64,000 nucleotides of DNA from NCBI GenBank assembly GCA_964035015.1, contig OZ035999.1, positions 1 through 64,000 of the forward strand, read 5' to 3'. How positions within the stretch are numbered: position 1 is the first letter of the stretch; each line of letters opens with the position of its first letter. The DNA comes from Corallium rubrum. Its lineage: Eukaryota > Cnidaria > Anthozoa > Scleralcyonacea > Coralliidae. The position numbers and the translations under genes were made by a program. Under the pieces are notes generated by a model. The model worked only from the letters and a program-made list of their open reading frames with translations, was not told where the DNA came from and searched no databases. Of the stretch, positions 27,674 through 63,487 are shown one piece after another.

Positions 27674-30600
27674 TCAGTAAAATACTTCTATTTCAGTTGG
27701 AGTAAACTTGTGACTTCCAGCCAGAAGAGATCTGATTTGTGCAGTGCCACGTTGGTATCCTGGGGGTGGTTGATATGAGTAGCCAAGGTTGGAGTATGAT
27801 TGTTGATTGTGATTGGAGTTATCACTGATGCGGAAATCACGACCTCCACCAAAGATTGGTCCCCAGTTAGGATTGCTGTAGATTGCATGTTGCTTGTAGT
27901 GAATATCACATTTGAATGCAGGTATGTCGTCTTTATTTTTTAACGAAAACAAAAACGAGGAGTTGGACTGTTTATAACCTTGACCTGAAATAAAATGTAA
28001 AACATTCACTCCATGTGTTCATCATATTTTGTTTTACTTTGTCATTGACTTTAAAAAACATTTTAAACCAAAACAAAGAAAACTTTTTAAACGGTTCTGT
28101 CATTGAATTATCTTGAATGTACAGTTTTAGCAGAACACTATAATTTTCTACATGTTTGATATAAAATACAGAAATACAGAAAGGAAATTGAACTTCTATA
28201 AAAGACTAAACGTAAGGTTTTAGTTTTTTAAAATAAAATGTTATTTATATTCAGTATTAGATATACTAGTGTACCTTAATTTACTACTAACTAACTAACT
28301 ATACTACAGTATATTATTCTTTATAACTAATGCAGGGCAATACTCTGGGGAATTGTAATTTTTTCTCAAGTTCATTTTCCTACCCCCAAGCAAAGCTGAA
28401 AAAATAATATAAGAACTAACACATAATTTACACTATCAACTGCAAAGTTATTTTTGAACATGAAATGAAATAATGTAAAATTAAACAGTGGCTCATTTCT
28501 GTTGCTGTATGTCTATATGCCACACGTTTGGAATATTTTCATGAAAAATCCTTTAATTTCATCCCCATTTTTGAACACATGGAAGAAAGAAATGTTTAGT
28601 TACCAGGCTCCCCATGCACATCTCTTCATATTGAGATTGATCCCAGCCTATTAGGGTTAGGGTACCCCTGGGATAAAATTAATAAAACAATGCCCCAGCT
28701 GGGGGGGGGGGGGGGGTTACAAGAAGAATTGACTCGTGCATAAATAAATTATATACTGTGATTACTACTAAATATACTATATATAAAATATACTGATCTT
28801 TTCTTTTATTATTAATTTAATTATTCTTGAAATTATCCTGTGTGGTCCTGATTCAAACTTGAATACTAAACTATCAGAAACTTGCTGCATTTTTCATTTT
28901 ACAAAAATATCACAATCATTTTAAATATTTAAAGTAATAATCATCAATGCATGTTTTATGGGCTATAATATTATAAATAGGTTTTCTATTCCCCGAGAAA
29001 GGATACTAATTGCAACCAGTGTAAAGTCGCACACACCAAGTGACAGTGTACAAGGTGGGCCAAATTTTGAATTGAGTTTACATGTATTTATTATCTTTGA
29101 ATTTTGTGCTGCCACCTTTGATCTAAATGGAGAATTGGATGTATTTTATCCACCAACAGACTAAAGATATTGCATTTTTGAAAATGTAGAGTACATCACA
29201 TTAGACCTCTCCTCAGAGATTAAGACAAGATCATTATCCAGGGTAGCCTGGGTACAGTAGCTGGCAGTATTAGGGGTTACGGCATCGGGGCTTGGGACTG
29301 AGCAGCTACACAGGTTTGCTCTAGTGAAAATGATCAAGATTTATGTCTGTGCGATAAGTGTGGTGTTGAAATACGAGTTTCTATTTTTAAAGAAGACTTG
29401 ATGTTAAGAAATTATCTTTACGGTTACCTTCCCAGTTCTGGTCTGTATATCCACCAAAAATATAATCCCCAACTTTTACTAACGTTACTGTAGGACCCTT
29501 GTTGTCACAACATCTGTGAAAATCTTGTCCACCCCATCCATCTCTGCCAGCTCGATAACAAAGACGCCATTGAAACTGATCATCCAACCACTCTTCCATT
29601 TGTTTGCCATATTCCAAATGACCATTCAAAATAATTGAGGTATTACATAATTCACAAGGAACTGCTGCAGGACGACATGCTAGATAAGAAAGTAAATTAC
29701 ATATGATCAGCCCATTCCTGCCTGAGGCTGAGCTGGCCAATTACCATAGTAAAGGGCGGTGCCCTGTTTATTAGCCTCAAGAACGTTGCATCAAAAACGT
29801 CGCGTTAAAAAACGTCGCGTAAAAATGTCACTTGCTATGGACTCCGCGCTAGCCTGCGTGCAGACTTCCTCCGTTTCCGTTCCCCGACGGAAACGGGGGA
29901 AGTCTGCACGCTGGCTAACTCCGCGCGAGCGATGAACGAACGAACTCGCAGACACAATTCTGAGGCGAAGCGTTAATAATTAGCCCGCTTGCAACACTCC
30001 AAGTATCAAATAGCAAAGTGCTGAAGCTCCTAAGTAAGAGTTTGGACGCATGAGCTAGGCTTGGTTCGCTGCGCCGCTAACTCATCAGGGCATCGCAACA
30101 GACCTAGAGAAAATACCTCAGACCTTGTGAAGGTTTTATCTGGGGTTGAATCAACTACAACATGTACCATCTACCTTTCGTTAATTTTTATTTATTTTTA
30201 GTTTTATAATCTTACCAACTTTTCCCAGAACGAGCTTATCCAAGAACGTCGTAACATTGTGGTTGATTGGGGTGCTTTGATATTCAATGTTGCCATCGTG
30301 AACAGGTTTCATACTTCGCGGTCGCTCTTGTTTCATTCTTTTTATATTCTCGTCAATCATATTTTGCGACGAAAGAATTTCTTCATCGTTGCCTTTCTCA
30401 AGAAGGTTCTTGGCTAGATTGAAAGAACCTTTTACTTTATCCACGTGACGTTTCACTTCGGTTTCTTGTTCCACAAGTGGTTCGTGGGTTTCTTTGTATT
30501 TCTTCTCCACTTCATTCATCATTAGTTTGGCTTTCTCTTCCAGCTTTTGGGTAAAGATTTTTAAAACTTCTTCTTTCTGCCGAGTGATGTCTTTCTTTGC

Positions 30601-31350
30601 TTTCTTTGTATTGTCTTCCAGAGACTGTTTGGCATTTGATATCAACTCTAATGTGTCGTTGCCTTCATTCAGTCTTTCTTGCAAGATTGTACAACGCGAT
30701 GCTAATACTTCTCTTTGCTTCGCAGCTACGTCTACTAGTGGCAAACATAAATGATCTGGACGTACATGTTGAACCTCCATGCAATATCTGCAGACGAGTT
30801 CTTTACATGTTTCGCAATAGAACTTAAGGGTCTTGTTCTCATGTTTCTTGCAGTAAAGTTTTGCTCTGATCTTTGCTTGGTTCTCAGGTTGACTCAACTC
30901 GTTTACTGATAGCACAGCGTGTTTCTTGTTGGCCTGGCTGTACCAAGTTTCATGAGCTTCGAAACATTTTTCGCACATGAACACCTCACAAGTTGTACAT
31001 CGACTAACGGCTGCCTCTTGGCAACGAGAACATTTAGAAACCTTTGCTTGTCGTTGAATCGCCATCACATCCAACATGTTTCGGATAAAATGACTGCTCG
31101 CCATTCCTGCTACTTCATCTTTTGATTTCAGATTAAATTCTGACCGACATGTTGGACAGTTGAATACTTCAATCTTTTTACCAGCTGCTTCCTGACGATG
31201 GCGTTTTACAAACTTCTCTAAACATACTTTGCAGAAAGAATGGAAGCAAGGCAATGTTCGAGGTTCGTTCAAAGTTTCCAAGCAGATTGGACATGTCAGT
31301 AAGGATTCTAGTTCATCAACTGGAACGACGTCGGTCGAAGAAGTAGCCAT
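27674..31350 (-). CDS. TRIM-TLDc gene 1: RING, two B-boxes, coiled coil, TLDc
   Basis: Predicted E3 ubiquitin ligase with a C-terminal TLDc domain. Exons 31350-30216, 29679-29428 and 27984-27674, GT/AG introns, both of phase 1; 565 residues. RING Cys20-Cys68 (CPIC..CFHSFCKVC..CPTC, C3HC4), B-box 1 Cys107-His144, B-box 2 Cys167-His200, coiled coil about 205-325, TLDc about 393-565 (RDGWGGQDFHRCCDNKG, YIFGGYTDQNW, DFRISDNSNHN, LLAGSHKFTPTEIEVFY). I chose the ATG at 31350 (ACAATGGCT, strong context); an upstream TTG extension is not a likely start. RING proteins of this kind transfer ubiquitin; TLDc proteins such as OXR1 and NCOA7 bind the V-ATPase, but the role of this fusion is unknown. Leftmost of four copies; exon 3 is highly diverged from its paralogues. 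Confidence 0.93.
29850..29917. mobile_element. Foldback element in intron 1 of TRIM-TLDc gene 1
   Basis: TAGCCTGCGTGCAGACTTCC is followed by CCGTTTCCGTTCCC and its inverse, ending GGAAGTCTGCACGCTGGCTA. It is present at the same place in the other genes (39738, 50992, 62153), so it predates the duplications. Confidence 0.8.
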
Positions 31351-31453
31351 TGTAGACAAGGTTTTCTTCAAAAAGTGTAGTAGTTTCTCGTAAACTTAAT
31401 CAGCAAACGAAACTAGAAATCGTTTGACTCAGTTCAGATCTTGGAAGTCTTTC

Positions 31454-31463
31454 TTTCGGTTTC
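31454..31463 (-). promoter_or_regulatory. IRF/ISRE-like motif upstream of TRIM-TLDc gene 1
   Basis: The minus strand reads GCGAAACCGAAAGAAAG, containing the IRF-element core GAAANNGAAA, 104 bp upstream of the ATG. A second GAAACTAGAAA lies closer to the gene. The arrangement is conserved in genes 3 and 4. Binding by an IRF factor is an inference. Confidence 0.5.
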
Positions 31464-31828
31464 GCAATAGCCAATTCTCAGTAAATGGCAATATGATTCC
31501 TTATTTCATGGTAAACTATGTAATATCCTGCTGTGATTGGTTTTCTATTTTAATATTTCCATATTCTTAGGAATCCGCCCTGGCCTGCACCACATGCATA
31601 CCATGCAGTACATGCGTATTGAACAGTACCTAGCAACACGATTAGGTTCAAAACCTTTCTTTTTATCTTAATTTAACGTGTAAAGCAAGGCGATATAACA
31701 CAAGCGGTTTTATTTACAGGTACGATTATACTTAATTGAAGATGTATTCAACGAAGTGATTTATTCCTGCATTTCATTATGTTAAACACCGCAATATGAC
31801 CTGTCTGGCTGTCTCACAATACCTGGGG

Positions 31829-32405
31829 GTATTAAACGAACGAACGAACGAACGAACGAACGAACGAACGAACGAACGAACGAAACGAACGAAACGAACG
31901 AAACGAACGAAACGAACGAAACGAACGAAACGAACGAAACGAACGAAACGAACGAAACGAACGAAACGAACGAAACGAACGAAACGAACGAAACGAACGA
32001 AACGAACGAAACGAACGAAACGAACGAAACGAACGAAACGAACGAAACGAATGAAACGAACGAAACGAACGAAACGAACGAAACGAACGAAACGAACGAA
32101 ACGAACGAAACGAACGAAACGAACGAAACGAACGAAACGAACGAAACGAATGAAACGAACGAAACGAACGAAACGAACGAAACGAACGAAACGAACGAAA
32201 CGAACGAAACGAACGAAACGAACGAAACGAACGAAACGAACGAAACGAACGAAACGAACGAAACGAACGAAACGAACGAAACGAACGAAACGAACGAAAC
32301 GAACGAAACGAACGAAACGAACGAAACGAACGAAACGAACGAAACGAACGAAACGAACGAAAGGAACGAAACGAAACGAACGAAACGAACGAAACGAACG
32401 AACGA
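31829..32405 (+). repeat. (CGAA)n and (CGAAACGAA)n repeat between units A and B
   Basis: About 12 CGAA tetramers are followed by about 530 bp of a nonamer CGAAACGAA, with rare T or G variants. The plus-strand frame through it spells Arg-Thr-Lys repeats and is not a gene. In unit C the same site (52946) is pure tetramer. Confidence 0.95.
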
Positions 32406-32487
32406 ATTAATTAATTAAATCATATTACATCAAGGTAACACATGAAAAGTATTTTACTGTTATTGCGTTTAGGATGTTATCATTATA

Positions 32488-33136
32488 TTATCATCACCAC
32501 CACCACTATCATCAACACCACTACGATCAACACCACTACCATCATCATTATTACCACCACCATCACTCATCACCACCAAGAACAACACGACCCACCACTA
32601 CTATTACCACCTCTACCACCATAACCATCACACCACCGTTACCACCACCACTATTGCCACCATATAACCACCACCACCATTACCACCACCACCCACCACC
32701 ATTACGACGTGCACCACCATCATTACCACCATTACGACGACCACCACCATCATTACCACACCATCATTACCACCATTACGACGACCACCACCATCATTAC
32801 CACCATTATGACGACCACCACCATCATTACCACCATTACGACCACCACCATCATTACCACCACCATCATTACCACCATTACGACCACCACCACCATCATT
32901 TCGACCACCATCACCATATCATTTCGACCACCACCACCATCATTACCATCATTACGCCGACCACCACCATCATTACCATCATTTCCACGACCACCACCAT
33001 CATTACCACCTTTACAACCACCACCATCATTACCATCATTTCGACCACCACCATCATTACCACCGCTATTACCACCACCACCATCATTACCATCACTATT
33101 ACCACCACCACCATCATTACCACCACTATTACCATT
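32488..33136 (+). repeat. ACC/ATC-rich minisatellite between units A and B
   Basis: Imperfect array of units like CCACCACCATCATTACCACC with ATTACGACC and TTTCGACC variants. The frames through it are low complexity (His/Tyr, Thr/Ile, Pro). Confidence 0.92.
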
Positions 33137-34236: not shown

Positions 34237-34239
34237 CTG

Positions 34240-36572: not shown

Positions 36573-39500
36573 TCAGTAAAATACTTCTATTTCAGTTGGA
36601 GTAAAGTGGTAACTTCCAGCCAGAAGAGATCTGGTTTGTGCAGTGCCATATTGGTATCCTGGGGGTGGTTGATATGTGCTGCCAAGGTTGGAGTATGAGT
36701 CTTGATTGTGAGTGGAGTTATCACTGATCTGGAAATCACAACGTCCAAAGACTGGTCCGTAGTTAGGACCACTGATGATTGCACATTGCTTGTTGTGAAT
36801 ATCGCATTTGAATGCAGGTATGTTGTCTTTATTTTCTAACGAAAACAAAAACGAGGAGTCGGACTGTTTCCATTCACCTTGACCTGAAATAAAATGTAAA
36901 TTATTTACTCCTTGTGTTCATCATATTTTGCTTTACTTTGTCATTGACTTTAAAAAACATTTTAAACCAAAACAAGGAGAATTTTTAAAACAGTTCTGTC
37001 ATTGAATTCTCTTGTACAGTTTTAGCAGAACATTATAATTTTCTACATGTTTGATATAAAATGCAGAAATATAGAAAGAAAATTCCACTTCTAAAAACTA
37101 AAGTAAGGTTTCATTTTTTTAAAGTGTATATTTACTACTAAATATACTATATACTGTAATTACAACTAAATATACTATTATAATTATTTCTTTTTAATTC
37201 TACTCTAAATTATTTTCTTATTAAATTTAATATTTTTTCTAAATTATCATGTGTGGTCTTGATTCAAACTTGAATACTAAACTATCAGGAACTCAGATCA
37301 CTGCATTTTTCATTTTTACAAAAAAAATCAGTAATTCTCAATTCTTGGTTTGCACTTGACATCATGGTGGCCATGTTGGAGGAACTTTAACAAAAGAATC
37401 TCATTAGCAGCTATTGTATTTGAAGTATGTTTTCCTCCAACATGACCACTGTATCTTTGTCTCCTAAATCTCAAGGGATTGATTGCAAACCACCAATATT
37501 TAAAGTAATCATGGCCTCTGATTAATCTGACATATATTTTGACCTATAATAGAAAAGACTTTTTATGACTTTTTGAATCTTGTGCTGCAACCTATGCTGT
37601 TAACTCATTGCTGCCTAGGATGTCTGAGGGTTCTCCTTTTGGCTAGTAAAATTGTCTGGTGTTAGACAGAGTGAAACAATAAAGGTGCCATTTTTGAGCA
37701 GCTCAGGCATGAATGCTGTATTTCATGATGTATGTATTTTATCTGCCAACAGACTAAAAATATTTCATTTTTGAAAATGTAGAGTACATGACATCAAACA
37801 CTTCCACAAAGATAAGATCTCACTCCAGGATCAAGGTGGTCTGGGTTACTTAAGCTGGCAGTCTTAGGGCTTGGGAGCAGCTGTGAAGACTATTGTAATT
37901 CCTGGGAAAATGATGATAAAGACTTTTTACAATTATGTATGTGTTTTATAGCATGCTTGGACTGGCCTATGTGCCATTGTGCCAATAATAATAATTAGTA
38001 TAAATACACAGGTGATTATAGAAAATCACGCGCGCTGATTGGTCGAGCTACTTCAGATTAATTTTCAATAATCACCTACAGCGTTTAGTCATAATGGCCA
38101 CCAGCCAAAGTTGTCAATGCGACAGACAAGGAAATTAACAATTTTAAAGAAAATACACTTCCTAAAAGTACGAAAATGTGTATTTATACTAAAACAAATA
38201 TTCGCCTCAGGCTCAGTGAATATCGGTGAATAATAACCCCGATTTCGTCTCGGTTATTATACACCGATATTCACCTTGCCTTCAGTGAATAATTGTTAAA
38301 TAATAGTATAATAAAAAATTTTATTTAATCATGGTAATACAAACTCAGCTGAGCTGCTTTTCAAGTAGCCATGAAATAAACTGTAAAACTAATCTATTTA
38401 CATCAATTATAATATACATTTATTAATTATTTATATATGTATATATATGAAGTTATTTAAGATAATAAGGACAAAAAGTACTAAAAGAACAAAACATTAA
38501 TATTGGAAATCAATCTGGTATGCACTCAGAAGCATTCGTTAACAGCAGCTTTAAAAGATAGCAAAGAGGGAGAATCTTTTACTGAACTGGGCAACTGATT
38601 CCACAATTTCACTCCACTGTAGCTGAAGCTCTTTTTAGATATTCACTATTTGGACGTGGCATGAAATAGTTATTTTGAGTGACACTCCGTAAAGCATATG
38701 TAGTAGTTTGGGAACTCTTTGTAAACATGTCTGTCAAGTGGCATTGGCACATGCACCCACCTTTAGAATACCTCTACTGCGTCCCGTGAACTAATTATAA
38801 TTGCTAAAATAGGTATTAAATGATATGGCTGTCCATTACATGTAGTTTGTTACTGAATAATATTCTGCTTTCTTAAATTCATGTTGTTTGTGGTAGCAAG
38901 GGGTAGACAGGAGAGTTGCTGTTTCATAAGATATATTTTCTTCCAGCAAATGGTAAGCCTGTTGGCCTGCACTTTTGTGCTGATTTTATATAAAGTTTCT
39001 GTGAGTTAATCATACATGGGAGAACAATAATGGCAACAACAATCACCAATTTTGAAATATTTCTATTTACAGAGGCTTGTGGGCAAATTTGTCTGTAATG
39101 TACCAAGTAGGCGAATGTCATTTTTATTAATTTATTTTTTTAACTGCACCCCTCTCCCTAATGCCACTGTCCCTAATACAAAGCAAGTTCTGTTGAACAA
39201 TTTTGAATTTAAGAACATACCCGCCCTGGTGTTGAAATACAAGTTTCTTTTTTAAGAACTTACCTCTAGGATGGTTATTTGCCCAGTTCTGGTCTGTATA
39301 TCCACCAAAAATATAATCCCCAACTTTCACAAGTGTCACTGTAGGTCCCTTCCTGTCACAGGATCTGTGAAAATCTTTTGCACCCCATCCATCTCTGGTA
39401 GCTCGATAACAAAGACGCCATTGAAACTGATCATCCAACCATTCTACCATTTGTTTGCCATATTCCAAATGACCATTCAAAATAATTGAGGTATTACATA

Positions 39501-41163
39501 ATTCACAAGGAACTGCTGCAGGACGACATGCTAGATAAGAAAGTAAATTACATATGATCAACCCATTCCTGCCTGAGGCTGAGCTGGCCAATTACAGTAG
39601 TAATGGGCGGTGTCCTGTTTATTAGCGTCAAAAACGTTGCATCAAAAACGTCGCGTTAAAAAACGTCGCGTAAAAAATGTCACTTGCTATGGACTCCATC
39701 AATGTGATTTCTTTTCATGTCTGTTTGCTTTCCGCGCTAGCCTGCGTGGAATGGAAACGGGGGAAGTCTGCACGCAGGCTAACTCCGCGCGAGCGATGAA
39801 CGAACGAACTCGCCGACACAATTCTGAGGCGAAGCGTTAATAATTAGCCCGCTTGCAAGAGTTTGGACGCAGCTAGGCTAGGTGCCCTGCGCAGCTAACT
39901 CGTCAAGGCATCCCCAATAGACCTAGAGAAAATACCTCAGACCTTGTGAAGGTTTTATCTGGGGTTAAATCAACTACAACATGACCATCTATCTTTAGTT
40001 AATTTTTATTTCTGTTTAGTTATATAAATCTTACCAACTTTTCCCAGTTTATCCAACAACGTCGTAACATCATTGTCGTTGATTGGGGTGCTTTGATATT
40101 CAATGTTGCCATCATGAACAGGTTTCATATTCCGTGGTCGCTCTTGTTTCATTATTTTTATATTCTCGTCAATCATATTTTGCGACGAAAGGATTTCTTC
40201 ATCGTTGCCTTTCTCAAGAAGGTTCTTGGCTAGATTGAAAGAACCTTTTACTTTATCCACGTGACGTTTCACTTCGGTTTCTTGTTCCACAAGTGGTTCG
40301 TGAGTTTCTTTGTATTTCTTCTCCACTTCATTCATCATCAGTTTGGCTTTCTCTTCCAGCTTTTGGGTTAAGATTTTTAAAACTTCTTCTTTCTGCCGAG
40401 TGATATCTTTCTTTGCTTTCTTTGCATTGTTTTCCAGAGACCGTTTGGCATTTGATATCAACTCTAATGTGTCGTTGCCTTCCTTCATGCTTTCTTCCAA
40501 GATTGTACAACGCGATGCTAATACTTCTCTTTGCTTCGCAGCTACGTCTACTAGTGGCAAACATAAATGATCTGGACGTACATGTTGAACCTCCATGCAA
40601 TATCTGCAGACGAGTTCTTTACATGTTTCGCAATAGAACTTAAGGGTCTTGTTCTCATGTTTCTTGCAGTAAAGTTTTGCCCTGATCTTCGCTTGGTTCT
40701 CAGGTTGACTCAACTCGTTTATTGATAGCACAGTGTGTTTCTTGAGGGCTGGCCAGCTTTCGTGAACTTCGAAACATTTTTCACACATGAACACCTCACA
40801 AGTTGTACATCGACTAACCGCTTGCTCTTGGCAACGAGAACATTTAGAAACCTTTGCTCGTCGTTGAATCGCCATGACGTCCAACATATTTCGGATAAAA
40901 TGACTGCTCGCCATTCCTGCTACTTCATCTTTTGATTTCAGATTAAATTCTGACCGACATGTTGGACAGTTGAATACTTCAATCTTTTTACCAGCTGCTT
41001 CCTCACGATGGCGTTTTACAAACTTCTCTAAACAGACTTCGCAAAAAGAATGAAAACAATAAGGCAATGTTCGGGGTTCGTTCAAAGTTTCTAAGCAGAT
41101 TGGACATCTCAGTAAGGATTCTAGTTCATCAACTGGAACGACGTCGGTTGAAGAAGTAGCCAT
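36573..41163 (-). CDS. TRIM-TLDc gene 2: RING, two B-boxes, coiled coil, TLDc
   Basis: Exons 41163-40035, 39530-39264 and 36883-36573, phases as in gene 1; 568 residues. It shares the family architecture and is intact, with two local peculiarities. The RING reads LPYCFHSFCEVC, one residue (Tyr) longer between Cys pairs than the other copies. Exon 2 runs five codons further (NNHPR after DQNW) to a shifted donor, putting an insertion into the TLDc domain between its two halves. Exon 3 most resembles gene 4 (HNKQCAIISGP, GPVFG, one codon shorter there), with 18 replacement and no silent codon differences from it. The promoter region differs from the other three copies. Predicted ubiquitin ligase; substrate unknown. 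Confidence 0.92.
37978..38790 (-). pseudogene. Decayed LINE reverse-transcriptase end in intron 2 of gene 2
   Basis: Remnant orthologous to the better preserved copy at 49575-50240, with the (AAT)n tail at the left. A foldback element sits in the tail (about 37996-38305), containing the pair AGTGAATATCGGTGAATAAT / ATACACCGATATTCACC. Frames are broken. Confidence 0.65.
39738..39781. mobile_element. Foldback element in intron 1 of gene 2, partly deleted
   Basis: TAGCCTGCGTGGAATGGAAA then CGGGGGAAGTCTGCACGCAG: the left arm has lost its middle compared with the copies at 29850 and 62153. Confidence 0.7.
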
Positions 41164-41560: not shown

Positions 41561-42915
41561 TCATTATCATCAACACCAGTACCATCATCACCACTACCAT
41601 CATCACCACTACCATCATCAATCATCACCACCACTACTATTACCACCTCTACCACCATAACCACCACACCACCACACCACGATTACTAGCACCACCATTA
41701 CCACCACCACCATTACCACCACCACCACTTTTCCTTCCATGACAACCATCATCATTACCACTACCATTACCACCACAACTATTCTCTCCATAACCACCAG
41801 CATCATTACCACCACCACTATTCCTACCACCACCACTACCACTATTCCTACCACGATTAACATAACCACCACTATTCCTACCACCACCACCACTACCATT
41901 ACCACAACCGCCACTATTCCTATCACGATTAACATAACCACCACTATTCCTATCACCACCACCACCATTACCACAACCACCACAATTCTTAGCACCATTA
42001 ACGTAACCACCACTATTCCTACCACCACCACCACCATTACCACAACCGCCACTATTCCTACCACGATTAACATAACCACCACTATTCCTACCACCACCAC
42101 CATTACCACAACCACCACTATTCCTACCACTATTATCACAACCACCACTATTCCTACCACGATTAACATAACCACCACTATTCCTACCACCACCACCATT
42201 ATCACAACCACCACTTCCTACTACCATTACCACAACCACCACTATTCCTACCACCACCATGCACCATTACCACAACCGCCACTATTCCCACCACCATTAA
42301 CATAACCACCACTATTCCTACCACCACCACCACCATTACCACAACCACCACTATTCCTACCACCACCACCACCACCACTATTACCACAACCACCACTATT
42401 CCTACCACCATTACCACAACCACCACTATTCCCACCACCGCCATTACCACAACCACCACTATTCCTACCACCACCACCACCACCACCACCATTACCACAA
42501 CCACCACTATTCCTACCACCATTACCACAACCACCACTATTCCTACCACCACCACCAGCATTACCACAACCACCACTATTCCTACCACCATTACCACAAC
42601 CACCACTATTCCTACCACCATTACCACAACCACCACTATTCCTACCACCACCATTACCACAACCACCACTATTCCTACCACCATTACCACAAGCACCACT
42701 ATTCCCACAAGCATTACCACAACCACCACTATTCCTACCACCACCACCACCATTACCACAACCACCACTATTCCTACCACCACCACCACCACTATTCCTA
42801 CCACCATTAACACAACCACCACTATTCCTACCACCACCACCACCACTATTCTCTCCATAACCACCAGCATCATTACCAGCACCATTACCAGCACCATTAC
42901 CACCACCATTACAAT
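41561..42915 (+). repeat. ACC-rich minisatellite between units B and C, about 1.35 kb
   Basis: Array of units like ACCACCACTATTCCTACCAC with CATTACCACA spacers, in which units of 24-42 bp are repeated many times. Frames on both strands (Thr/Ile, Val/Gly, Gly/Asn) are low complexity. Confidence 0.94.
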
Positions 42916-44069
42916 GATCGTCATTTATTAACATACTTTATTAGTATACGGAATCTTGTAATGTTATTAAATCAAAAACTCTATTTAATATACAATTAAG
43001 AACTACCCTAAGCTAAAATTTAATTATTTACAAGAGTGACAATGCTTGCACAGTTCATGAATTTAATATTCCTATAAATTCTTGTTTTTAATATTTTTTT
43101 ACAATAAATTACAAAAAAAAATGCTAGATCACTAAGGAATTTTGTCCATAATCATGTGAGTAAATGTTTTTCAAATTACTATATAGCTAATCATTCTGTA
43201 GTTCTGAACTTCTACATTTTCTAATCTTGTCTTTACACTACTAAATAAGTAAGTACATTTAAGTAGTAGCAGTTGATATTTTACTTTAAACGTTTAAAAC
43301 GCAACAAAATCTACCTAACTTTTGAACTTAAAAGAAACATAAACGTGTTTTCAACTTCGTAAAATGTTAAAAAAACTTTTATAGTTGAAAGAAACATAAA
43401 CGTGTTTACAAATAAGCCGTTAAAATGTCGTTTTTCAGCTTCATAAAAAGATATAATAAATTGCAAAAAATTCCTTTTAACGGAATTCAATTAAAATGGG
43501 AAAACATTTTCCAAAAGGCTTCTCGAGGAATCGCGTTTTCCGTTTGCGATCTCTCTCATTCTATTTTTTTTTTCAATTGGTGCTCTCCTTTCGAAATTTC
43601 TAGATCCGCTCCTAAGAGCATTAGTTTGTGATGTTTTCTGTCAGTCCTGTTGCACTTGTTTTAAATTCTTGTTAAACATTCTTTTTCTTCTTTTTCTTTA
43701 CTCTGTAAGAGTTAGAACTGGGTTATATAGAGTTAGGGTTATAAGACAACGTTTTAGGGTTGGTTGGGATAGGATTTTGTTCAACGACATGACCTAGGTT
43801 CTTTATAAGTGTAAACAATTGAGTGCTGTGTACGTAGTGTTTTGGATAATAACAAAGCGAAATGGTGGCGAACTGCTGAGATTTCAGAAACGAAATACTG
43901 ACGTTTCAAGCACAGCCCTGCATCAGAGTTTACTTAAGAAAACTGATAAAGGGTTCCGCTCGAACTGACATCAGTTATTCGTTACTGTCATAAAAGACTC
44001 TGCTCGAAACATCAGTATTTCGTTTTTAAAATCTCGTCAGCTTGCCATCTTTTCGTTTTATTAAGTCTG

Positions 44070-48209: not shown

Positions 48210-51200
48210 TCAGTAAAATACTTCTATTTCAGTTGGAGTAAAGTTGTAACTTCCAGCCAGAAGAGATTTGGTTTGTTCAGTGTGAGGTTGGTATCCTGGG
48301 GGTGGTTGATATGTGTGGCCAAGGTTGGAGCGTGAGTCTTGATTGTGATTGGAGTTATCACTGATGTGGAAATCAGGACCCCAACCAAAGCGTGGTCCGC
48401 AGTTAGGACGGCTGCAGATTGCATGTTGCTTGTCGTGAATATCGCATTTGAATGCAGGTATGTCGTCTTTATTTTTTAACGAAAACAAAAACGAGGAGTT
48501 GGACTGTTTATAACCACCTTGACCTGAAATAAAATGTAAAACATTTACTCCATGTGTTCATCATATTTTGCTTTACTTAAACGAAAACAAAGAAAACTTT
48601 TTAAACTGCTCTAGATCTGTCATTGAATTATCTCGTACAATTTTAGCAGAACATTATAATTTTCTACATGTTTGATTAAAATACAGAAATATAGAAAGAA
48701 AATTCAAACTAAAGTAAGGTTTCATTTTTTAAAGTGTAAATTTCCTACTAAATATACTAATATACTGTAATTACTAATTACAACTAAATATACTATTATA
48801 ATTATTTCTTTTTAATTCTACTCTAAATTATTTTATTATTAAATTTAATATTTTTTCTAAATTATCATGTGTGGTCTTGATTCAAACTTGAATACTAAAC
48901 TATCAGGAACTCAGATCACTGCATTTTTCATTTTTACAAAAAAAATCAGTAATTCTCAATTCTTGGTTTGCACTTGACGTCATGGTGGCCATGTTGGAGG
49001 AACTTTAACAAAAGAATCTCATTAGCAGCTATTGTATTTGAAGTATGTTTTCCTCCAACATGGCCACTGTATCTTTGTCTCCTAAATCTCAAGGGATTGA
49101 TTGCAAACCACCAATATTTAAAGTAATCATGGCATCTGATTAATCTGACATATACTTTGGCCTATAATAGAAAAGACTTTTTATGACTTTTTGAATCTTG
49201 TGCTGCAACCTATGCTGTTAACTCATTGCTGCCTAGGATGTCTGAGGGTTCTCCTTTTGGCTAGTAAAATTGTCTGGTGTTAGACAGAGTGAAACAATAA
49301 AGGTGGCATTTTTGAGCAGCTCAGGCATGAATGCTGTATTTCATGATGTATGTATTTTATCTGCCAACAGACTAAAAATATTTCATTTTTGAAAATGTAG
49401 AGTACATGATATCAAACACTTCCACAAAGATAAGATCTCACTCCAGGATCAAGGTGGTCTGGGTTACTTAAGCTGGCAGTCTTAGGGCTTGGGAGCAGCT
49501 GTGCAGACTATTGTAATTTCTGGGAAAATAATGATAAAGACTTTTTACAATTATGTATGTGTTTTATAGCAGCCTTGGACTGCCCTATGTGCCAATAATA
49601 ATAAATAATAATATAATAAAAATCTTTATTTAATCACAGTAGTACAAACTCAGTTGAGCTGCTTTTCAAGTAGCCATGAAATAAGCTCTAAAACTAATTA
49701 TCTATTTACATCAATTATAATACATTTATTAATTGTTTACATATGTATATGAAGTTATTTAAGATAATAAGGACAAAAAGTACTATAAGAACAAAATATT
49801 AATATTGGAAATCAATCTGGTATGCACCCAGAAGCATCCGTTAACAGCAGCTTTAAAATATAGCAAAGAGGGAGAATCTTTTACTGAACTGGGCAATTGA
49901 TTCCACAATTTCACTCCACTGTAGCTGAAGCTCTTTTTTAGATATTCACATTCACTATTTGGATGTGGCATGAAATAGTTATTTTGAGTGACACTCCTTA
50001 AACCATATGTAGTAGTTTGGGAACTCTTTGTAAACATGTCTGTCAAGTGGCAATGGCACATGCACCCACCTTTAGAATACCTCTACTGCATCCTGTGAAC
50101 TAATTATAATTGCTAAAATAGGTATTAAATAATATGGCTGACCATTACATGTTGTTAATATGAATAATATTCTGCTTTTTTAAATTCATGTTGTGTGTGG
50201 TCGCAAGGGGTAGACGGGAGAGTTCAATGCTGTTCCATAAGATATACTAATTTTATTCCGGCAAATGGTAAGCCTGTTGGCCTGCACTTTTGTGTTGTTT
50301 TTATATAAAGTTTCTGTGAGTTAATCATATATGGGAGAACAATAATGGCAACAACAATCACCAATTTTGAAATCTTTCTATTTACAGAGGCTTGTGGGCA
50401 AATTTTTCTGCAATGCACCAAATAGGTAAATGGTAATTTCTATTAATTTCATTTTTTTAACTGCACCCCTCTCCCTAATGGCACTGTCCCTAATACAAAG
50501 CCAGTCTGACTCTGTTTTATAGTATGGTGTTGAAACATTTTTGAAGAATTTTGAATTTAACAACATACCTGCCCAGTTCTGGTCTGTATATCCACCAAAA
50601 ATATAATTCCCAACTTTCACAAGTGTCACTGTAGCACCCTTATTGTCACAACATCTGTGAAAATCTTTTGCACCCCATCCATCTCTGGTAGCTCGATAAC
50701 AAAGACGCCATTGAAACTGATCACCTAACCATTCTTCCATTTGTTTCCCATATTCCAAATGACCATTCAAAATAATTGAGGTATTACATAATTCACAAGG
50801 AACTTCTGCAGGACGACATGCTAGATAAGAAAGAAAATTACATATGATCAACCCATTCCTGCCTGAGGCTGAGCTGGCCAATTACAGTAGTAAAGGGCGG
50901 TGCCCTGTTTATTAGCGTCAAGAACGTTGCATCAAAAACATCGCGTTAAAAAACGTCGCGTAAAAAATGTCACTTGCTATGGACTCCGCGCTAGCCTGCA
51001 GACTTCCTCCGTTTCCGTTCCCTGACAGAAACGGGGGAAGTCTGCACGCAGGCTAACTCCGCGCGAGCGATGAACGAACGAACTCGCAGACACAATTCTG
51101 ATGCGAAGCGTTAATAATTAGCCCGCTTGCAAGTAAGAGTTTGGACGCAGTTAGGCTTGGTTCGCTGCGCAGCTAACTCGTCAGGGCATCGCATTAGACC

Positions 51201-52443
51201 TAAAGGAAATACCTCAGACCTTGTGAAGGTTTTATCTGGGGTTGAATCAACTACAACATGTACCATCTACCTTTCGTTAATTTTTATTTCTTTTTAGTTT
51301 TATAATCTTACCAACTTTTCCCAGTTTATCCAACAACGTCGTAACATCATTGTCGTTGATTGGGGTGCTTTGATATTCAATGTTGCCATCATGAACAGGT
51401 TTCATATTCCGTGGTCGCTCTTGTTTCATTCTTTCTATACTCTCGTCAATCATCTTTTGCGACGAAAGGATTTCTTCATCGTTGCCTTTTTCAAGAAGGT
51501 TCTTGGCTAGATTGAAAGAACCTTTTACTTTATCCACGTGACGTTTCACTTGGATTTCTTGTTCCACAAGTGGTTCGTGAGTTTCTTTGTATTTCTTCTC
51601 CACTTCATTCATCATTAGTTTGGCTTTCTCTTCCAGCTTTTGGGTAAAGATTTTTAAAACTTCTTCTTTCTGCCGAGTGATGTCTTTCTTTGCTTTCTTT
51701 GCATTGTCTTCCAGAGACTGTTTGGCATTTGATATCAACTCTAATGTGTCGTTGCCTGCCTTCAGGCATTCTTCTAAGATTGTACATCGCGATGCTAATA
51801 CTTCTCTTTGCTTCTCGGCTACTTCTGCTAGTGGCAAACATAAATGATCTGGACGGACATGTTCAAAATCCATGCAATATCTGCAGACGAGTTCTTTACA
51901 TGTTTGGCAATAGAACTTAAGGGTCTTGTTCTCATGTTTCTTGCAGTAAAGTTTTGCTCTGATCTTTGCTTGGTTCTCAGGTTGACTCAACTCGTTTACT
52001 GATAACACAGCGTGTTTCTTGTTGGCCTGGCTGTACCAAGTTTCATGAACTTCGAAACATTTTTCGCACATGAACACCTCACAAGTTGTACATCGACTAA
52101 CGGCTGCCTCTTGGCAACGAGAACATTTAGAAACCTTTGCTTGTCGTTGAATCGCCATGACCTCCAACATATTTCGGATAAAATGACTGCTCGCCATTCC
52201 TGCTACTTCATCTTTTGATTTCAGATTAAATTCTGACCGACATGTTGGACAGTTGAATACTTCAATCTTTTTACCAGCTGCTTCCTGACGATGGCGTTTT
52301 ACAAACTTCTCTAAACATACTTTGCAGAAAGAATGAAAGCAAGGCAGTGTTCGAGGTTCGTTCAAAGTTTCCATGCAAATTGGACATGTCAGTAAGGATT
52401 CTAGTTCATCAACTGGAACGACGTCGGTCGAAGAAGTAGCCAT
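48210..52443 (-). CDS. TRIM-TLDc gene 3: RING, two B-boxes, coiled coil, TLDc
   Basis: Exons 52443-51312, 50820-50569 and 48523-48210, GT/AG, phases as in gene 1; 565 residues. RING CPICMETL..CFHSFCKVC..CPTC, B-boxes and coiled coil as in gene 1. The first exon is closest to gene 4, with about ten residue changes, some silent changes and GAA/GAG-type wobble differences. The last exon is closest to gene 1 in backbone, yet differs from it at 19 residues with only one silent codon (TGT/TGC). Unusual residues in exon 3 are a free Cys in AICSRPNCGP and a Trp in FGWGPDF. Predicted E3 ligase with a diversified TLDc domain; partner unknown. ATG context ACAATGGCT. Confidence 0.93.
49575..50240 (-). 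pseudogene. LINE reverse-transcriptase C-terminal fragment in intron 2 of gene 3
   Basis: The minus-strand frame 50061-49783 reads TTYGLRSVTQNNYFMPHPNS, then EYLKKSFSYSGVKLWNQLPS and SSVKDSPSLLYFKAAV, the familiar C-terminal end of a non-LTR reverse transcriptase. An (AAT)n tail lies at its 3' end near 49590. Orthologous, more broken copies sit in genes 2 and 4; gene 1 has none. Confidence 0.82.
50992..51055. mobile_element. Foldback element in intron 1 of gene 3
   Basis: TAGCCTGCAGACTTCCTCCG and the inverse AAGTCTGCACGCAGGCTA, orthologous to 29850; the left arm has lost GTGC. Confidence 0.75.
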
Positions 52444-57013: not shown

Positions 57014-60000
57014 TCAGTAAAATACTTCTATTTCAGTTGGAGTAAAGTTGTAACTTCCAGCCAGAAGAGATCTGGTTTGTGCAGTGCAAGGTTGGTATCC
57101 TGGGGGTGGTTGATATGTGCGGCCAAGGTAGGAGAATGATTGTTGATTGTGATTGGAGTTATTACTGATGTAGAAATCACAATCTCCAAAGACTGGTCCG
57201 TAGTCAGGACCACTGATGATTGCACATTGCTTGTTGTGAATATCGCATTTGAATGCAGGTATGTCGTCTTTATTTTGTAACGAAAACAAAAACGAGGAGT
57301 TGGACTCTTTATAAACACCTTGACCTGAAATAAAATGTAAATTATTTACTCCATGTGCAGGGGCGGATTTAACGTTAGTCAAACAAGTCAAACGACTAAG
57401 GTGAAAAAAGGCGCAGAAAAAAAATCTCTTTCTATAGTTTTTCCATATATTCACTGCTATACTCTACAAGACTATCCAAGTCAATAATATCTAGTTACTC
57501 TGGTCACGCGAATATATGATAAGCACGCAGCGCCGTGTAAACAGAGCGCGGCTTAGCTTTGTTCTTCATCTTGCCTGATTTGAGCTATTGTATTAGCTGC
57601 GGTGATTGGCTAAATACCTAAAACGAATTCTATTACGCTCGTTCATTGGTTTGCCTGATTTCGTTGTCTTTTTTGCCTGATTTGGACCATTATATGACTT
57701 ATTCTCATTGGTTGAATTTTCGCAGAAGCTCTTTATCATGAACATTGATTGGTTGGCGGCGTTTTACTTTGTAGTTCTTGCCTGGTCTGCCGACTGATCT
57801 GCTGTCGAGACTGCCGATTCTGCCGAACATAAATTATGTATACTAAGAGTCAGACTGGGAGAGCTCTTTCAGTTTTGAACACATTTCGAACATGACTTTA
57901 CAAACGTGATAAAACGTGTAGTATTCACTTCAATGAAACAGCAGTGATGATTCAATTGTCCCGATCGGTAGGTAAGTTTTTTATTATTATCGACACTGGC
58001 TAAGGCCAGAAGGTATTACTCGTTAAAGGATTCTCAGAGTCTTGGCAGTCAGACTCAAACGGCTCAGAACATATCGCGGTAACTAATCCTTTGATTATGA
58101 AACGCGTATATTATAATAATAGTCTTATATATATAGACGCGACGTTTATAATAGTATTCTATTCTGGCTGAATGACTGTATGGGTTAGTAAATTTGATAG
58201 CGCTTGCGAACGTGAATTATTTAAATTGAACCATGTGATGTCTGGTAGTGATAGTTCTGCGTAAATACTGCACAACATGAGAACACATTAGTTTTGTTTG
58301 GTTGCCTCGTGTTCCTCTTGATGTTTCTCACACGACCAGATCTTAGCCTCAGTGGCCTGGAATATCATTCAAAATATCTAAAGTGCTTAATGATTTTGGT
58401 AACATGATTCTTTGATCTTGTCATATGAATGTGTTTAGGGGTGGACCATTAGAAATCAAGGGAGGGGGGTGTGAAAAATATGTGTGCATGAATTTTTTTT
58501 TTCAGCTCAAATTCCCTGCAGGACTTTTTTTTTCAGTGTGCAAGCTCTGCAGGAATTTTTTTTTTATAGGGTTATTTAAGCGATACGCGAAAGGATGCCA
58601 GTCCAAAACTGACCACGTGGCACTTTATAAAAACAGCGAGATGTGGCCTACAAATACAAGTATAACTAGCGATCATATTAAAGTGGTGAATAGCGGCTTG
58701 CACGCTATTAAAAAGACGATGATGATAAATATCAGTGTTCAAAAGTGTTTCTCTGGAGGGTTTATAAAATTGAACCACTCAATAAAAAGTTGCACACATG
58801 GTCATAAGAAGCTTGATAAACTTAGGGGGGGGCAACTCCCACGAGGCGCCACCATGGTTGGCGCCGAGCGTAAAAATTTTGAAAATTTGGAGTCTCTAGA
58901 TCGTTGGAAATGGCATTTTCAGAGTCTTCTCTACCTCTTTCGTTAGGCCCTTTCATTAATTCTTTCATTATGATTTGTGAGTATGCTATCCGTCAGTCAG
59001 GATGGATTATTATTAATAATTGGCCGAAATTAATAATAAATCAATTTTTTTGGGGGGACTGAAAGCTATTCCGGGCCACCCTATAAAATATTGGGGGGGG
59101 GGCAGCCCCCCGGCCCCCCTGCTTCCTACGCTCCTGGTTGCACAAACTCTGAATTCAAGTTTCGCTATTTCGAATTTATTTTGCATCCTCCTTAATTTTT
59201 ATTTCACAATTTTTATTTTTTATTTGAGATAATTAATATAAATGAAATAAGGAAATTTTATATAACAATGAATAATAGATAGTTTGTAGTGTTTGAAACT
59301 ACCTGAAGTTTCTAAATAGTATATTTGACTGTTTAATCAGTGAGCTTTTCCTTTTTATCATATGATAAATTACATAGTGCACTTTGCTTGCACGAATTTT
59401 TTTTTTGTTGTTGATCGTTTGCACGATTTTTTTTTCTTTATCATTTTCCTTGCGCGAATTTTTTTTTGGTAATTGTCACCCCCCCTCCCTTGATTTCTAA
59501 TGGTCCACCCCTTATGTGTACGTTCTGATGTTATTCAGGATTTCCGTCGGGGGTGCATACGTAGCAGCTACCTAAGATTCGATTTATTGGATTTTCCCCC
59601 GTTATTTTCTATAATTTTAAATGCATTTGCATAGCAAAAAGTCCACTTTATCCGATAAATTTATTTGACACCTTCCAGATTTGATAAAATGCGCTATTGA
59701 AAACACGATTTAAAACTTTTAAATCTTTCTCCAAAGTACCGTCAGAATGCAGGAAATGCCATTTCAGAGGTCCAAATTTCAAAAATTTTCAGGGGGGGCA
59801 TGCCCCCGGACCCCCCTAGGAATGGTTTGACTAAGGTGAAAAAAATTCTAGATCCGCCCCTGATGTGTTCATCATATTTTGCTTTACTTTGTCATTGACT
59901 TTAAAAAACATTTTTAAACCAAAACAAAGAAAATTTTTAAAACAGTTCTGTCATTGAATTCTCTTGAATGTACAGTTTTAGCAGAACATAATAATTTTCT

Positions 60001-63000
60001 ACATGTTTGATATAAAATACAGAAATATAGAAAGAAAATTCAACTTCTAAAAACTAAAGTAAGGTTTCATTTTTTTAAAGTGTATATTTACTACTAAATA
60101 TACTATATACTGTAATTACAACTAAATATACTTTTTAATACTACTACAATTAACTGTAAATTATTTTATTATTAAATTTAATATTTTTTCTAAATTATCA
60201 TGTGTGGTGTTGATTCAAACTTGAATACTAAACTATCAGGAACTCAGATCACTGCATTTTTCATTTTTACAAAAAAAAATCAGTAATTCTCAATTCTTGG
60301 TTTGCACTTGACATCATGGTGGCCATGTTGGAGGAACTTTAACAAAAGAATCTCATTAGTAGCTATTGTATTTGGAGTATGTTTTCCTCCAACATGGCTG
60401 CCATATCTTTGTCTCCTAAATCTCAAGGGATTGATTGCAAACCACCAATATTTAAAGTAATTATGGCATCTGATTAATCTGACATATATTTTGGCCTATA
60501 ATAGAAAAGACTTTTTATGACTTTTTGAATCTTGTGCTGCAACCTATGTTGTTAACTCATTGCTGCCTAGAATGTCTGAGGGTTCTCCTTTTGGCTAGTA
60601 AAATTGTCTGGTGTTAGACAGAGTGAAACAATAAAGGTGCCATTTTTGAGCAGCTCAGGAATGAATGCTGTATTTCATGATGTATGTATTTTATCTGCCA
60701 ACAGACTAAAAATATTTCATTTTTGAAAATGTAGAGTACATGACATCCAACACTTCCACAAAGATAAGATCTCACTCCAGGATCAGGGTGGTCTGGAAAG
60801 ATGGCAGTCTTAGGGCTTGGGAGCAGCTGTGCAGATAGCCTGTGTAGCTGATGGTATTAGGGAGTTCAGGTGCAGGTGGTCTGCTCCTGAACCCCCTAAT
60901 ACCACCAACTATGCAGCTGGTGACTGTGGAGACTATTGTAATTCCTGGGAAAATGATGATAAAGACTTTTTACAATTATGTATGTGTTTTATAGCAGGCT
61001 TGGACTGGCCTGTGCCATTCTGCCAATAATAATAAATAATAATATAATAATTTTTTTTATTTAATCACAGTAGTACAAACTCAGCTGAGCTGCTTTTCAA
61101 GTAGCCATGAAATAAGCTGTAAAACTAATCTATTTACATCAATTATAATATACATTTATTAATTGTTTACATATGTATATGAAGTTATTTAAGATAATAA
61201 GGACAAAAAGTACTAAAAGAACAAAACATTAATATTGGAAATCAATCTGGTATGCACTCAGAAGCATTCATTAACAGCAGCTTTAAAAGATAGCAAAGAG
61301 GGGAGAATCTTTTACTGAACTGGGCAATTGATTCCACAATTTCACTCCACTGTAGCTGAAGCTCTTTTTTAGATATTCACTATTTGGACATGGCATGAAA
61401 TAGTTATTTTGAGAGACACTCCTTAAACCATATGTAGTAGTTTGGGAACTCTTTTTGTGTTGTTTTTATTATAAAGTTTCTGTGAGTTAATCATACATGC
61501 GAACAATAATGGCAACAACAATCACCAATTTTGAAATATTTCTATTTACAGAGGCTTGTGGGCAAATTTGTCTGTAATGCACCAAGTAGGCGAATGTCAT
61601 TTTTATTAATTTATATTTTTAACTGCACCCCTCTCCCTAATGGCACTGTCCCTAATACAAAGCCAGTCTGACTCTGTTTTATAGTATGGTGTTGAGACAT
61701 TTTTGAACAATTTTGAATTTAACAACATACCTGCCCAGTTCTGGTCTGTATATCCACCAAAAGTATAATCCTGAACTTTCACAAGTGTCACTGTACGACC
61801 CTTATTGTCACAACATCTGTGAAAATCTTGTGTACGCCATCCATCTCTGGTAGCTCGATAACAAAGACGCCATTGAAACTGATCACCTAACCATTCTTCC
61901 ATTTGTTTCCCATATTCCAAATGACCATTCAAAATAATTGAGGTATTACATAATTCACAAGGAACTGCTGCAGGACGACATGCTAGATAAGAAAGTAAAT
62001 TACATATGATCAGCCCATTCCTGCCTGAGGCTGAGCTGACCAATTACAGTAGTAAAGGGCGGTGCCTGTTTATTAGCGTCAAAAACGTTGCATCAAAAAC
62101 ATCGCGTTAAAAAACGTCGCGTAAAAAATGTCACTTGCTATGGACTCCGCGCTAGCCTGCGTGCAGACTTCCCCCGTTTCCGTTCCCCGACGGAAACGGG
62201 GGAAGTCTGTGCGAAGGCTAACTCCGCGCGAGCGATGAACAAACGACCTCGCAGACATATGACCTTGTTAAAGTTTTATCTGGAGTTGAATTAACTACAA
62301 CATGTACCATCTCCCTTAAGTTAATTTTTATTTATTTTTAGTTTTATAATCTTACCAACTTTTCCCAGTTTGTCCAACAACGTCGTAACATCATTGTCGT
62401 TGATTGGGGTGCTTTGATATTCAATGTTGCCATCATGAACAGGTTTAATACTCCATGGTCGCTCTTGTTTCATTCTCTCTATATTCTCGTCAATCATATT
62501 TTGGGACGAAAGGATTTCTTCATCGTTGCCTTTCTCAAGAAGGTTCTTGGCTAGATTGAAAGAACCTTTTACTTTATCCACGTGACGTTTCACTTGGGTT
62601 TCTTGTTCCACAAGTGGTTCGTGAGTTTCTTTGTATTTCTTCTCCACTTCATTCATCATTAGTTTGGCTTTCTCTTCCAGCTTTTGGGTAAAGATTTTTA
62701 AAACTTCTTCTTTCTGCCGAGTGATGTCTTTCTTTGCTTTCTTTGCATTGTCTTCCAGAGACTGTTTGGCATTTGATATCAACTCTAATGTGTCGTTGCC
62801 TGCCTTCAGGCTTTCTTCTAAGATTGTACATCGCGATGCTAATACTTCTCTTTGCTTCTCGGCTACTTCTGCTAGTGGCAAACATAAATGATCTGGACGG
62901 ACATGTTCAAAATCCATGCAATATCTGCAGACGAGTTCTTTACATGTTTTGCAATAGAACTTAAGGGTCTTGTTCTCATGTTTCTTGCAGTAAAGTTTTG

Positions 63001-63487
63001 CTCTGATCTTTGCTTGGTTCTCAGGTTGACCCAACTCGTTTACTGATAGCACAGCGTGTTTCTTGTTGGCCTGGCTGTACCAAGTTTCATGAACTTCGAA
63101 ACAGTTTTCGCACATGAACACCTCACAAGTTGTACATCGACTAACGGCTGCCTCTTGGCAACGAGAACATTTAGAAACCTTTGCTTGTCGTTGAATCGCC
63201 ATGACCTCCAACATATTTCGGATAAAATGACTGCTCGCCATTCCTGCTACTTCATCTTTTGATTTCAGATTAAATTCTGACCGACATGTTGGACAGTTGA
63301 ATACTTCAATCTTTTTACCAGCTGCTTCCTGACGATGGCGTTTTACAAACTTCTCTAAACATACTTTGCAGAAAGAATGAAAGCAAGGCAGTGTTCGAGG
63401 TTCGTTCAAAGTTTCCATGCAAATTGGACATGTCAGTAAGGATTCTAGTTCATCAACTGGAACGACGTCGGTCGAAGAAGTAGCCAT
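57014..63487 (-). CDS. TRIM-TLDc gene 4: RING, two B-boxes, coiled coil, TLDc
   Basis: Exons 63487-62356, 61982-61731 and 57324-57014, GT/AG, phases as in gene 1; 564 residues. Same domain order as the other copies. B-box 1 has CENCFEVHETW (Asn for Lys), B-box 2 has CKTCKELVCRYCMDFEH. Exon 2 differs from gene 3 by eight residues (for example GWRTQDF, KGRTV, KVQDYTF) and I find no silent change there. Exon 3 groups with gene 2 but has 18 residue differences and no silent one. Intron 2 is 4.4 kb because a hAT-like element of 2.5 kb is inserted 33 bp beyond the exon 3 acceptor; the acceptor and pyrimidine tract are intact, so splicing could persist. Predicted ubiquitin ligase. Confidence 0.92.
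57358..59862. mobile_element. Non-autonomous hAT-like DNA transposon, 2.5 kb, in intron 2 of gene 4
   Basis: Ends CAGGGGCGGATTTA and ATTCTAGATCCGCCCCTG form an inverted repeat, with GACTAAGGTGAAAAAA just inside both ends. It is flanked by 5-bp direct repeats ATGTG (57353-57357 and 59863-59867). Unit C has the empty site CTCCATGTGTTCATC. The CAGGGGCGGAT terminus is typical of hAT elements, though a 5-bp rather than 8-bp duplication points to an atypical group. I see no transposase frame. A second element is nested inside. Confidence 0.8.
58438..59511. mobile_element. Nested PIF/Harbinger-like element inside the hAT element
   Basis: Terminal inverted repeats of about 33 bp, GGGGTGGACCATTAGAAATC and GATTTCTAATGGTCCACCCC, with TTA direct repeats at 58435-58437 and 59512-59514. 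The sub-terminal T-rich runs (GAATTTTTTTTT) are also inverted. The frame 58425-58946 overlaps its left edge and is not recognisable as transposase. Confidence 0.82.
60833..60930. mobile_element. Small foldback insertion in intron 2 of gene 4
   Basis: GGTATTAGGGAGTTCAGGTG faces TCCTGAACCCCCTAATACC, with TAGCTGAT / ATGCAGCTGG outside. It interrupts the sequence GAGCAGCTGTGCAGACTATT that is continuous in gene 3. Confidence 0.7.
61017..61460 (-). pseudogene. Decayed LINE end in intron 2 of gene 4
   Basis: Orthologue of 49575-50240, with the same (AAT)n tail and the same left part. Its 5' side is cut by a deletion that joins GGGAACTCTTT to TTGTGTTGTTTTTAT. Confidence 0.72.
62153..62220. mobile_element. 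Foldback element in intron 1 of gene 4
   Basis: TAGCCTGCGTGCAGACTTCC then CCCGTTTCCG and the inverse, ending GGAAGTCTGTGCGAAGGCTA. This is the most complete copy of the element shared by all four genes. Confidence 0.8.

Follow-up and report, generated by a model that had tools for sequence, protein, structure and literature searches.

TRIM proteins of the TRIM5alpha type carry a positively selected SPRY domain, while the TLDc domain is known for its conservation and for its links to V-ATPase and oxidative stress. Here we describe four tandem genes of the anthozoan Corallium rubrum in which a TRIM-like part is followed by a TLDc domain with a hypervariable C-terminal half. They lie on a 64,000-nucleotide stretch of genomic DNA (contig OZ035999.1, positions 1 to 64,000), referred to as the window, all on the minus strand and with three coding exons matched in each. 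Like TRIM5alpha, TRIM22 and finTRIM, the family presents RING, B-box and a probable coiled coil, gene duplication and positive selection, and excerpts of PMC2657112, PMC3137616 and PMC3356915 describe the duplication and positive selection in the TRIM family. It differs from these proteins in being anthozoan and in having TLDc, not SPRY, as the C-terminal domain: in the C-terminal part of gene 1, Pfam found no B30.2/SPRY and only TLD, in exons 2 and 3. With OXR1/OXR2, NCOA7, TBC1D24 and mEAK-7 the window family has the same domain, as judged by Pfam and by the fold of a homologue. An excerpt of PMC8329711 counts seven TLDc proteins in human, whereas the Pfam TLD model gave at least 124 exon-wise matches in the 474 Mb genome analysed here, which in addition has the hypervariable sites.

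The nearest named proteins by identity come from Dendronephthya for the subfamily of the window genes (subfamily A), and from Paramuricea and Dendronephthya for a second one (subfamily B), stony-coral and anemone relatives being less similar. By E-value, the first two matches were multi-copy TLDc proteins from Oculina and Nematostella. The Dendronephthya gigantea proteins, called "E3 ubiquitin-protein ligase TRIM33-like" by their source, likewise contain RING, B-box and TLDc, and are 51-55% identical over TLDc. Uncharacterised proteins from Paramuricea, Porites, Oculina, Actinia and Montipora are like some members of subfamily B in having EGF-type domains plus TLDc, and one Porites and one Oculina protein (P0065 and P0066) have an additional C-type lectin domain (PF00059). 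The Oculina protein P0001 contains tandem TLDc domains. In open full-text papers in PMC we found no report of diversifying selection on the D. gigantea TRIM33-like proteins and none of diversified TLDc domains, subscription papers and preprints being outside the scope of this search.

Diversifying selection on the last TLDc exon

An earlier note on this DNA had proposed apparent diversifying selection on the TLDc domain, on the basis of codon counts in the last exon (exon 3). These counts were exact within the exon ranges given below: genes 1 and 3 differ at 19 replacement codons, one silent codon (TGT/TGC) and a one-codon indel, genes 2 and 4 at 18 replacement codons and no silent one, and the two-base codon changes AAT/CGT, GGA/TGG, GGC/CAC and CAA/GAC are all present. 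Over the six pairs of window genes, the ratio of the proportions of replacement (pN) and silent (pS) differences reached 2.58 in exon 3, compared with 0.48 in exon 2 and 0.35 in the exonic codons of exon 1. The signal that the note had seen in exon 2 holds for genes 3 and 4 (eight replacements, no silent change) but not as a general pattern. Since the remaining five pairs carry three to eight silent differences each, exon 2 of the window genes is not diversified as a whole, and in 11 copies it is mostly ordinary, with one selected site in 81 codons. One-sided Fisher tests on exon 3 gave P 0.003 for genes 2 and 4 alone and P 0.045 for genes 1 and 3. Such single-pair tests are weak, and the case is carried by family-wide site models, comparisons with flanking DNA and the second subfamily.

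The window genes are part of an 11-gene tandem array at C12:27-162 kb (array C12a), encoding RING/B-box/B-box proteins with a C-terminal TLDc. Four more copies are found on the plus strand at C12:575-645 kb (C12b), and further related copies sit elsewhere in the genome. Exon 3 of gene 1, used as a query, gave at least 100 exon-wise matches in the same 474 Mb; 93 exon-3 sequences were extracted (37 from subfamily A, close to the window genes, 9 from subfamily C and 47 from B), a set that covers part of the 100 matches and holds two loci twice. From A, 28 of the 37 sequences were used, leaving out truncated, duplicate or divergent copies, and were analysed as A1 (17 copies) and A2 (11 copies). 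From B, 31 of the 47 were used, leaving out divergent copies, one identical copy and one with a stop, which makes 59 A and B copies; from C, 7 of the 9 were used. Likelihoods were obtained with our own code, not PAML: a GY94-type model with F3x4 frequencies and five beta classes, an HKY+G tree that fixed the branch proportions, and naive empirical Bayes. Copy C12a_67818 was retained with its internal-stop codon masked, and the exon-1 models used 9 of 12 matches. The C12b exon-2 alignment starts with about nine codons that are probably intronic, with a stop in each of the four copies.

In exon 3 of A1, twice the log-likelihood difference (2dlnL) was 213 for M1a-M2a, 228 for M7-M8 and 223 for M8a-M8. 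M8 assigned 25% of sites to a class with omega 14.7, and M2a identified 19 selected sites. The M7-M8 comparison gave 95 in A2, 252 in B (omega 5.1) and 29 in C. Simulations under the null, which calibrate M1a-M2a on the A1 set only, reached a maximum of 3.8 in 20 replicates, against the 213 observed. With more copies included, the dN/dS of exon 3 did not fall to a value near or below 1, the outcome that the earlier note had named as overturning its claim. Nine divergent TLDc copies (set Dc) gave no signal (M0 omega 0.27, M7-M8 1.0); these control sequences were chosen by us among the divergent copies left out of A and B, and they are older (pS 0.62) besides being unselected. A wrong tree, produced by recombination, was considered as the source of the signal and rejected, as the 3'-flank tree in place of the exon tree still gives an M1a-M2a value of 148 for the 11 array copies. 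Subfamily E (4 sequences) returned 31 "selected" sites, which were judged to be overfit and were not used.

Pairwise comparisons place the signal in the same part of the gene. In the 11-copy array, pN exceeded pS in 48 of 55 exon-3 pairs and 27 of 55 exon-2 pairs, and in C12b in all 6 exon-3 pairs and none of the 6 exon-2 pairs; in exon 1, where the sets include broken copies, this held for 0 of 66 array pairs and 0 of 6 C12b pairs. Site models of exon 2 gave M7-M8 values of 17 in C12a (one site) and 0 in C12b. When only disjoint nearest pairs were taken, pN/pS was 2.35 in A1 (P 2e-4) and 1.71 in A2 (P 0.014). The site models, together with these cross-checks on close copies, support the view that the C-terminal half of TLDc diversifies under selection. 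Positive selection is concentrated in the C-terminal domain, as in the SPRY-type restriction TRIMs, but the domain here is TLDc.

Neighbouring DNA provided a neutral yardstick. Among the 11 C12a copies, exon 3 differs by 10.2% and the DNA 10-410 bp downstream by 4.0-4.3%; framework codons of the exon differ by 4.4% and selected codons by 38%, the latter figure being circular since these codons were picked as variable. Among the four C12b copies, the 7.9% difference in exon 3 exceeds that of the adjoining upstream intron (3.3-4.3%) and that of the DNA 10-210 bp downstream (5.0%). In one recent C12b pair, 13 of 297 exon bases have changed, all of them replacements and none silent, against 3 of 480 flank bases (Fisher 5e-4). 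Because replacement divergence also exceeds that of the C12a downstream flank and of both adjoining C12b flanks, synonymous constraint is an unlikely cause of the high dN/dS. Comparing distances in exon 3 with those in the 3' flank gave a Mantel r of 0.31 (P 0.08).

Common selected positions in two subfamilies

Numbered along the A1 exon-3 consensus, the selected sites fall at 2, 3, 29, 32, 35, 37, 40, 43, 46, 48, 51, 61, 63, 68, 78, 79, 84, 91 and 92. Those within 29-51 are spaced two or three residues apart and are never adjacent. A1 and B have 14 of 17 mapped selected columns in common where 3.2 would be expected (P 1e-10), and A2 and B have 6 where 2.0 would be expected (P 0.005). Non-circular comparisons were obtained by choosing columns in one subfamily and testing them in another. 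Columns chosen from B only had pN 0.332 and pS 0.128 in A1, a ratio of 2.60 compared to 1.09 elsewhere, and a pN/pS of 2.97 in A2, compared to 0.65 elsewhere; columns chosen from A1 had a pN/pS of 0.373/0.214 = 1.74 in B, compared to 0.61 elsewhere. The same columns are the most variable in ten database TRIM-TLDc proteins, including nine from Dendronephthya (entropy 2.02 vs 0.92, P 2.6e-6), and, for the 15 of 19 that could be aligned, in database relatives of B (entropy 1.86 vs 0.85, P 8e-8). The selection that the earlier note saw in the TRIM genes is supported, but it extends beyond them: a second TLDc subfamily, some members of which have upstream EGF repeats, is selected at the same sites.

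The two subfamilies are built differently. Among the best 150 of 186 candidate B-box matches, some adjoin most of the A arrays (copies on C12, C1, C8, C15 and C23), and none is near any of the 31 analysed B copies, whose subfamily occupies loci on C13, C46, C47, C202 and others. Five stretches upstream of a B exon 2 were inspected. One (L104) has EGF exons, one of them above the cut-off for PF12947 and PF07645; three (L103, L105 and L106) have heptad-like exons, in which nothing scored above the Pfam cut-off; and one (L102) has a probable mobile element of Maverick/Polinton-like type upstream of the TLDc exon, with large ATPase-like and integrase-like frames at L102:1-5700. EGF repeats much like those of L104 were found at most 5 kb upstream of at least nine TLDc exon-2 matches (best 150 of 1549 candidates). 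Among the matches listed, five are on C46 (near 496, 1055, 1405, 1602 and 1985 kb), three on C1 (near 19.68, 26.09 and 59.46 Mb) and one on C23 (near 10.47 Mb); 7 of the nine are among the 31 analysed B copies, and in two more cases the repeats are farther off, at 15 kb (C39) and 23 kb (C46, 1.18 Mb). From the EGF repeats we infer secretion, and the EGF-linked B members probably work outside the cell. The host also has a separate TLDc gene that is mEAK-7-like (L107, at C12:17.46 Mb) and gives the genome's best Pfam TLD match.

Gene anatomy, fold and surroundings

Gene 1 was read from the sequence. Its exon 1 (30216..31350, with the ATG at 31350 and the donor after 30216) encodes a RING, two B-boxes and a probable coiled coil. 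Pfam matched zf-RING_UBOX, ANCHR-like_BBOX and zf-B_box in this order (PF13445, PF22586 and PF00643), all above cut-off, which is the RING/B-box arrangement of a TRIM (RBCC) protein. The coiled-coil region matched PML_CC below the Pfam cut-off, and the model of a homologue, P0007, has a long helix at 195-309 (block pLDDT 58-75). Exon 2 (29428..29679, splice sites read) encodes the N-terminal half of TLDc (PF07534 positions 14-78). Exon 3 (27674..27984, splice site and stop read) begins directly behind the AG acceptor, with 27984 as its first base, and encodes the C-terminal half (PF07534 78-167), hypervariable by the site models, and the stop codon. The exons of genes 2, 3 and 4, likewise on the minus strand, were located by tblastn; the lower end of exon 1 is approximate, exon 2 is given as its matched part, and exon 3 was in addition compared codon by codon. 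For gene 2, the TRIM part lies at 40027..41163 (92% to gene 1), the N-terminal TLDc half at 39283..39525 and the hypervariable half at 36573..36883. The corresponding exons are at 51280..52443, 50573..50815 and 48210..48523 in gene 3, and at 62324..63487, 61735..61977 and 57014..57324 in gene 4. Beyond the window the array continues up to C12:162 kb, with eleven exon-2/exon-3 pairs in order, and its last gene has an exon 1 split across 157.8-162.2 kb.

Pfam TLD scored above its cut-off exon by exon. A direct search of the PDB with the single joined TLDc sequence gave no match, and a profile of six TLDc domains matched mEAK-7, Skywalker and NCOA7. The model of P0007, 53% identical over TLDc and used in place of a window protein, was matched by Foldseek to the TLDc crystal structures 4acj, 7obp, 6r82 and 7u8o (TMt 0.62-0.78), with pLDDT of 67-89 in the TLDc blocks. 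This match suggests that the TLDc fold is probably kept.

The window also contains about 6 kb of almost pure TAT/ATT-type trinucleotide repeat (8600-14800), visible as long Tyr/Ile/Leu/Asn frames, and more long simple repeats at 1650-3240 and 41600-42930, with poly-Val/Gly/His/Thr frames. A minus-strand frame at 16315-16767 resembles a glutathione peroxidase exon, and another at 23246-23653, also on the minus strand, resembles the first exon of an exosome-subunit gene.

A candidate recognition face and its alternatives

The observed sequence pattern is real and larger than first described, and as a sequence finding it is solid. The four window genes belong to a large family of TRIM-like, putative E3 ligases, which is anthozoan and probably octocoral, and in which TLDc replaces the SPRY domain of antiviral TRIMs. 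In the C-terminal half of TLDc the framework is kept, while some 18-19 fixed positions, which probably form one predicted ligand-binding face, are under strong diversifying selection. Each copy would most likely recognise a different variable partner, namely a non-self protein from a virus, bacterium or symbiont, which the RING is predicted to ubiquitinate once it is captured. The same positions are diversified in the second TLDc subfamily, for which no TRIM part is among the matches listed and whose EGF-bearing members are probably extracellular. We consider it probable that TLDc acts as a hypervariable recognition face, both on TRIM ligases, where each copy would have its own variable partner, and on probably extracellular proteins. 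As a reading of sequence data, the recognition face gains good support from the recurrence of the same selected sites, subject to the points that follow.

A number of observations weigh against this reading. Copies evidently exchange sequence, and recombination inflates site tests. Exon-3 and exon-2 distances of the same genes are uncorrelated (Mantel r -0.07), and copies C12a_103387 and C12b_8155, from different arrays, differ at one silent site in exon 3 while their flanks cannot be aligned; hence copies probably swap exon-sized pieces. The C12a intron upstream of exon 3 differs more than the exon itself: at 20-220 bp the average is 15% and the median pair 7.5%, and farther away the difference rises to 25-33%. 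This intron is therefore unusable as a yardstick, which leaves the neutral comparison in C12a dependent on the downstream DNA, where constraint on an untranslated region may act. Within the selected codons of A1, pS is about twofold higher than elsewhere (0.128 vs 0.055), for which path counting is a possible explanation, with a possible mild mutational contribution. As A1 and B are homologous, inheritance may account for their common sites, and change is in any case tolerated at surface positions. Disjoint nearest pairs in B gave a pN/pS of only 1.19 (P 0.054). Under M1a-M2a, exon 1 (exonic codons) has a small selected class of its own (9%, omega 3.6, 2dlnL 23); three sites, at alignment positions 133, 136 and 142, lie towards the end of the first B-box. 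One exon 3 of the array, near 67.8 kb (copy C12a_67818), has an internal stop, the A copies on C18 and C150 have no B-box match nearby among the best 150 of 186 candidates, and all selection data come from one assembly.

Some of these points would suit a pattern produced by relaxed constraint plus gene conversion, by alignment error or by assembly error: the exchange between copies, the stop in one copy and the split exon 1 of another, and the divergent C12a intron. We nevertheless regard such an artefact as the least credible explanation, given that the C12b exon differs more than both of its adjoining flanks, that the recent C12b pair has only replacement changes in the exon and few changes in its flanks, that framework codons remain conserved with a stop in only 1 of 17 A1 copies, and that two subfamilies agree on the sites. 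A mutational mechanism acting on NNY codons and requiring no selection on the protein, either targeted hypermutation or a template-driven diversifier, was suggested by the many variable codons in which bases 1 and 2 vary widely and base 3 stays C or T, and the raised pS of the selected codons would be in line with it. In a simulation of plain codon selection, however, third-base changes made up 13% (2.5-97.5% range 8.5-18.8%), compared to 15.5% observed. Frozen third bases thus follow from the genetic code when replacements are favoured; the hypermutation proposal was rejected on these grounds, and a purely mutational origin is very improbable.

TLDc domains bind V-ATPase, and the selected face could also be the V-ATPase face, which would escape or track an effector aimed at this face. 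Five mEAK-7 contact residues, taken from an excerpt of PMC9263379, lie in exon 3; in three alignments four of them are at or beside selected sites, and the fifth is four residues off. However, 40-47% of exon positions are within one residue of a selected site, and the four of five are therefore not significant; two of the three alignments have gaps at three of the five contacts, and an extracellular form would be expected to have no contact with the pump's cytosolic side. We regard a contest over V-ATPase binding as improbable. We give more weight, while still thinking it unlikely, to a diversified face that acts in self/non-self allorecognition, in recognising symbionts or on a range of endogenous substrates, and not in pathogen defence. 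Corals are colonial, and colonies fuse or reject one another. The selection signature would be identical, and one subfamily is partly EGF-linked and probably extracellular, but the A genes resemble TRIMs, and no feature of secretion was noticed in them. The data do not separate these readings: a pathogen arms race is what we infer, and allorecognition, symbiont recognition and diversified endogenous substrates fit the sequence equally.

Returning to TLDc as a hypervariable recognition face, it is tempting to go one step further and suggest, tentatively and with the balance close to even, that anthozoans have made TLDc a general hypervariable recognition fold. It would be intracellular on TRIM ligases and extracellular on EGF or coiled-coil stalks, with more than 50 germline variants in one genome, and its role would be like that of immunoglobulin (Ig), leucine-rich or fibrinogen-type variable receptors. 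The present findings offer a TRIM arrangement whose target-binding module would not be SPRY, and they name about 18 positions as candidates for ligand binding. Sharply defined hypervariable TLDc positions in two differently built subfamilies point to an undescribed invertebrate recognition repertoire.

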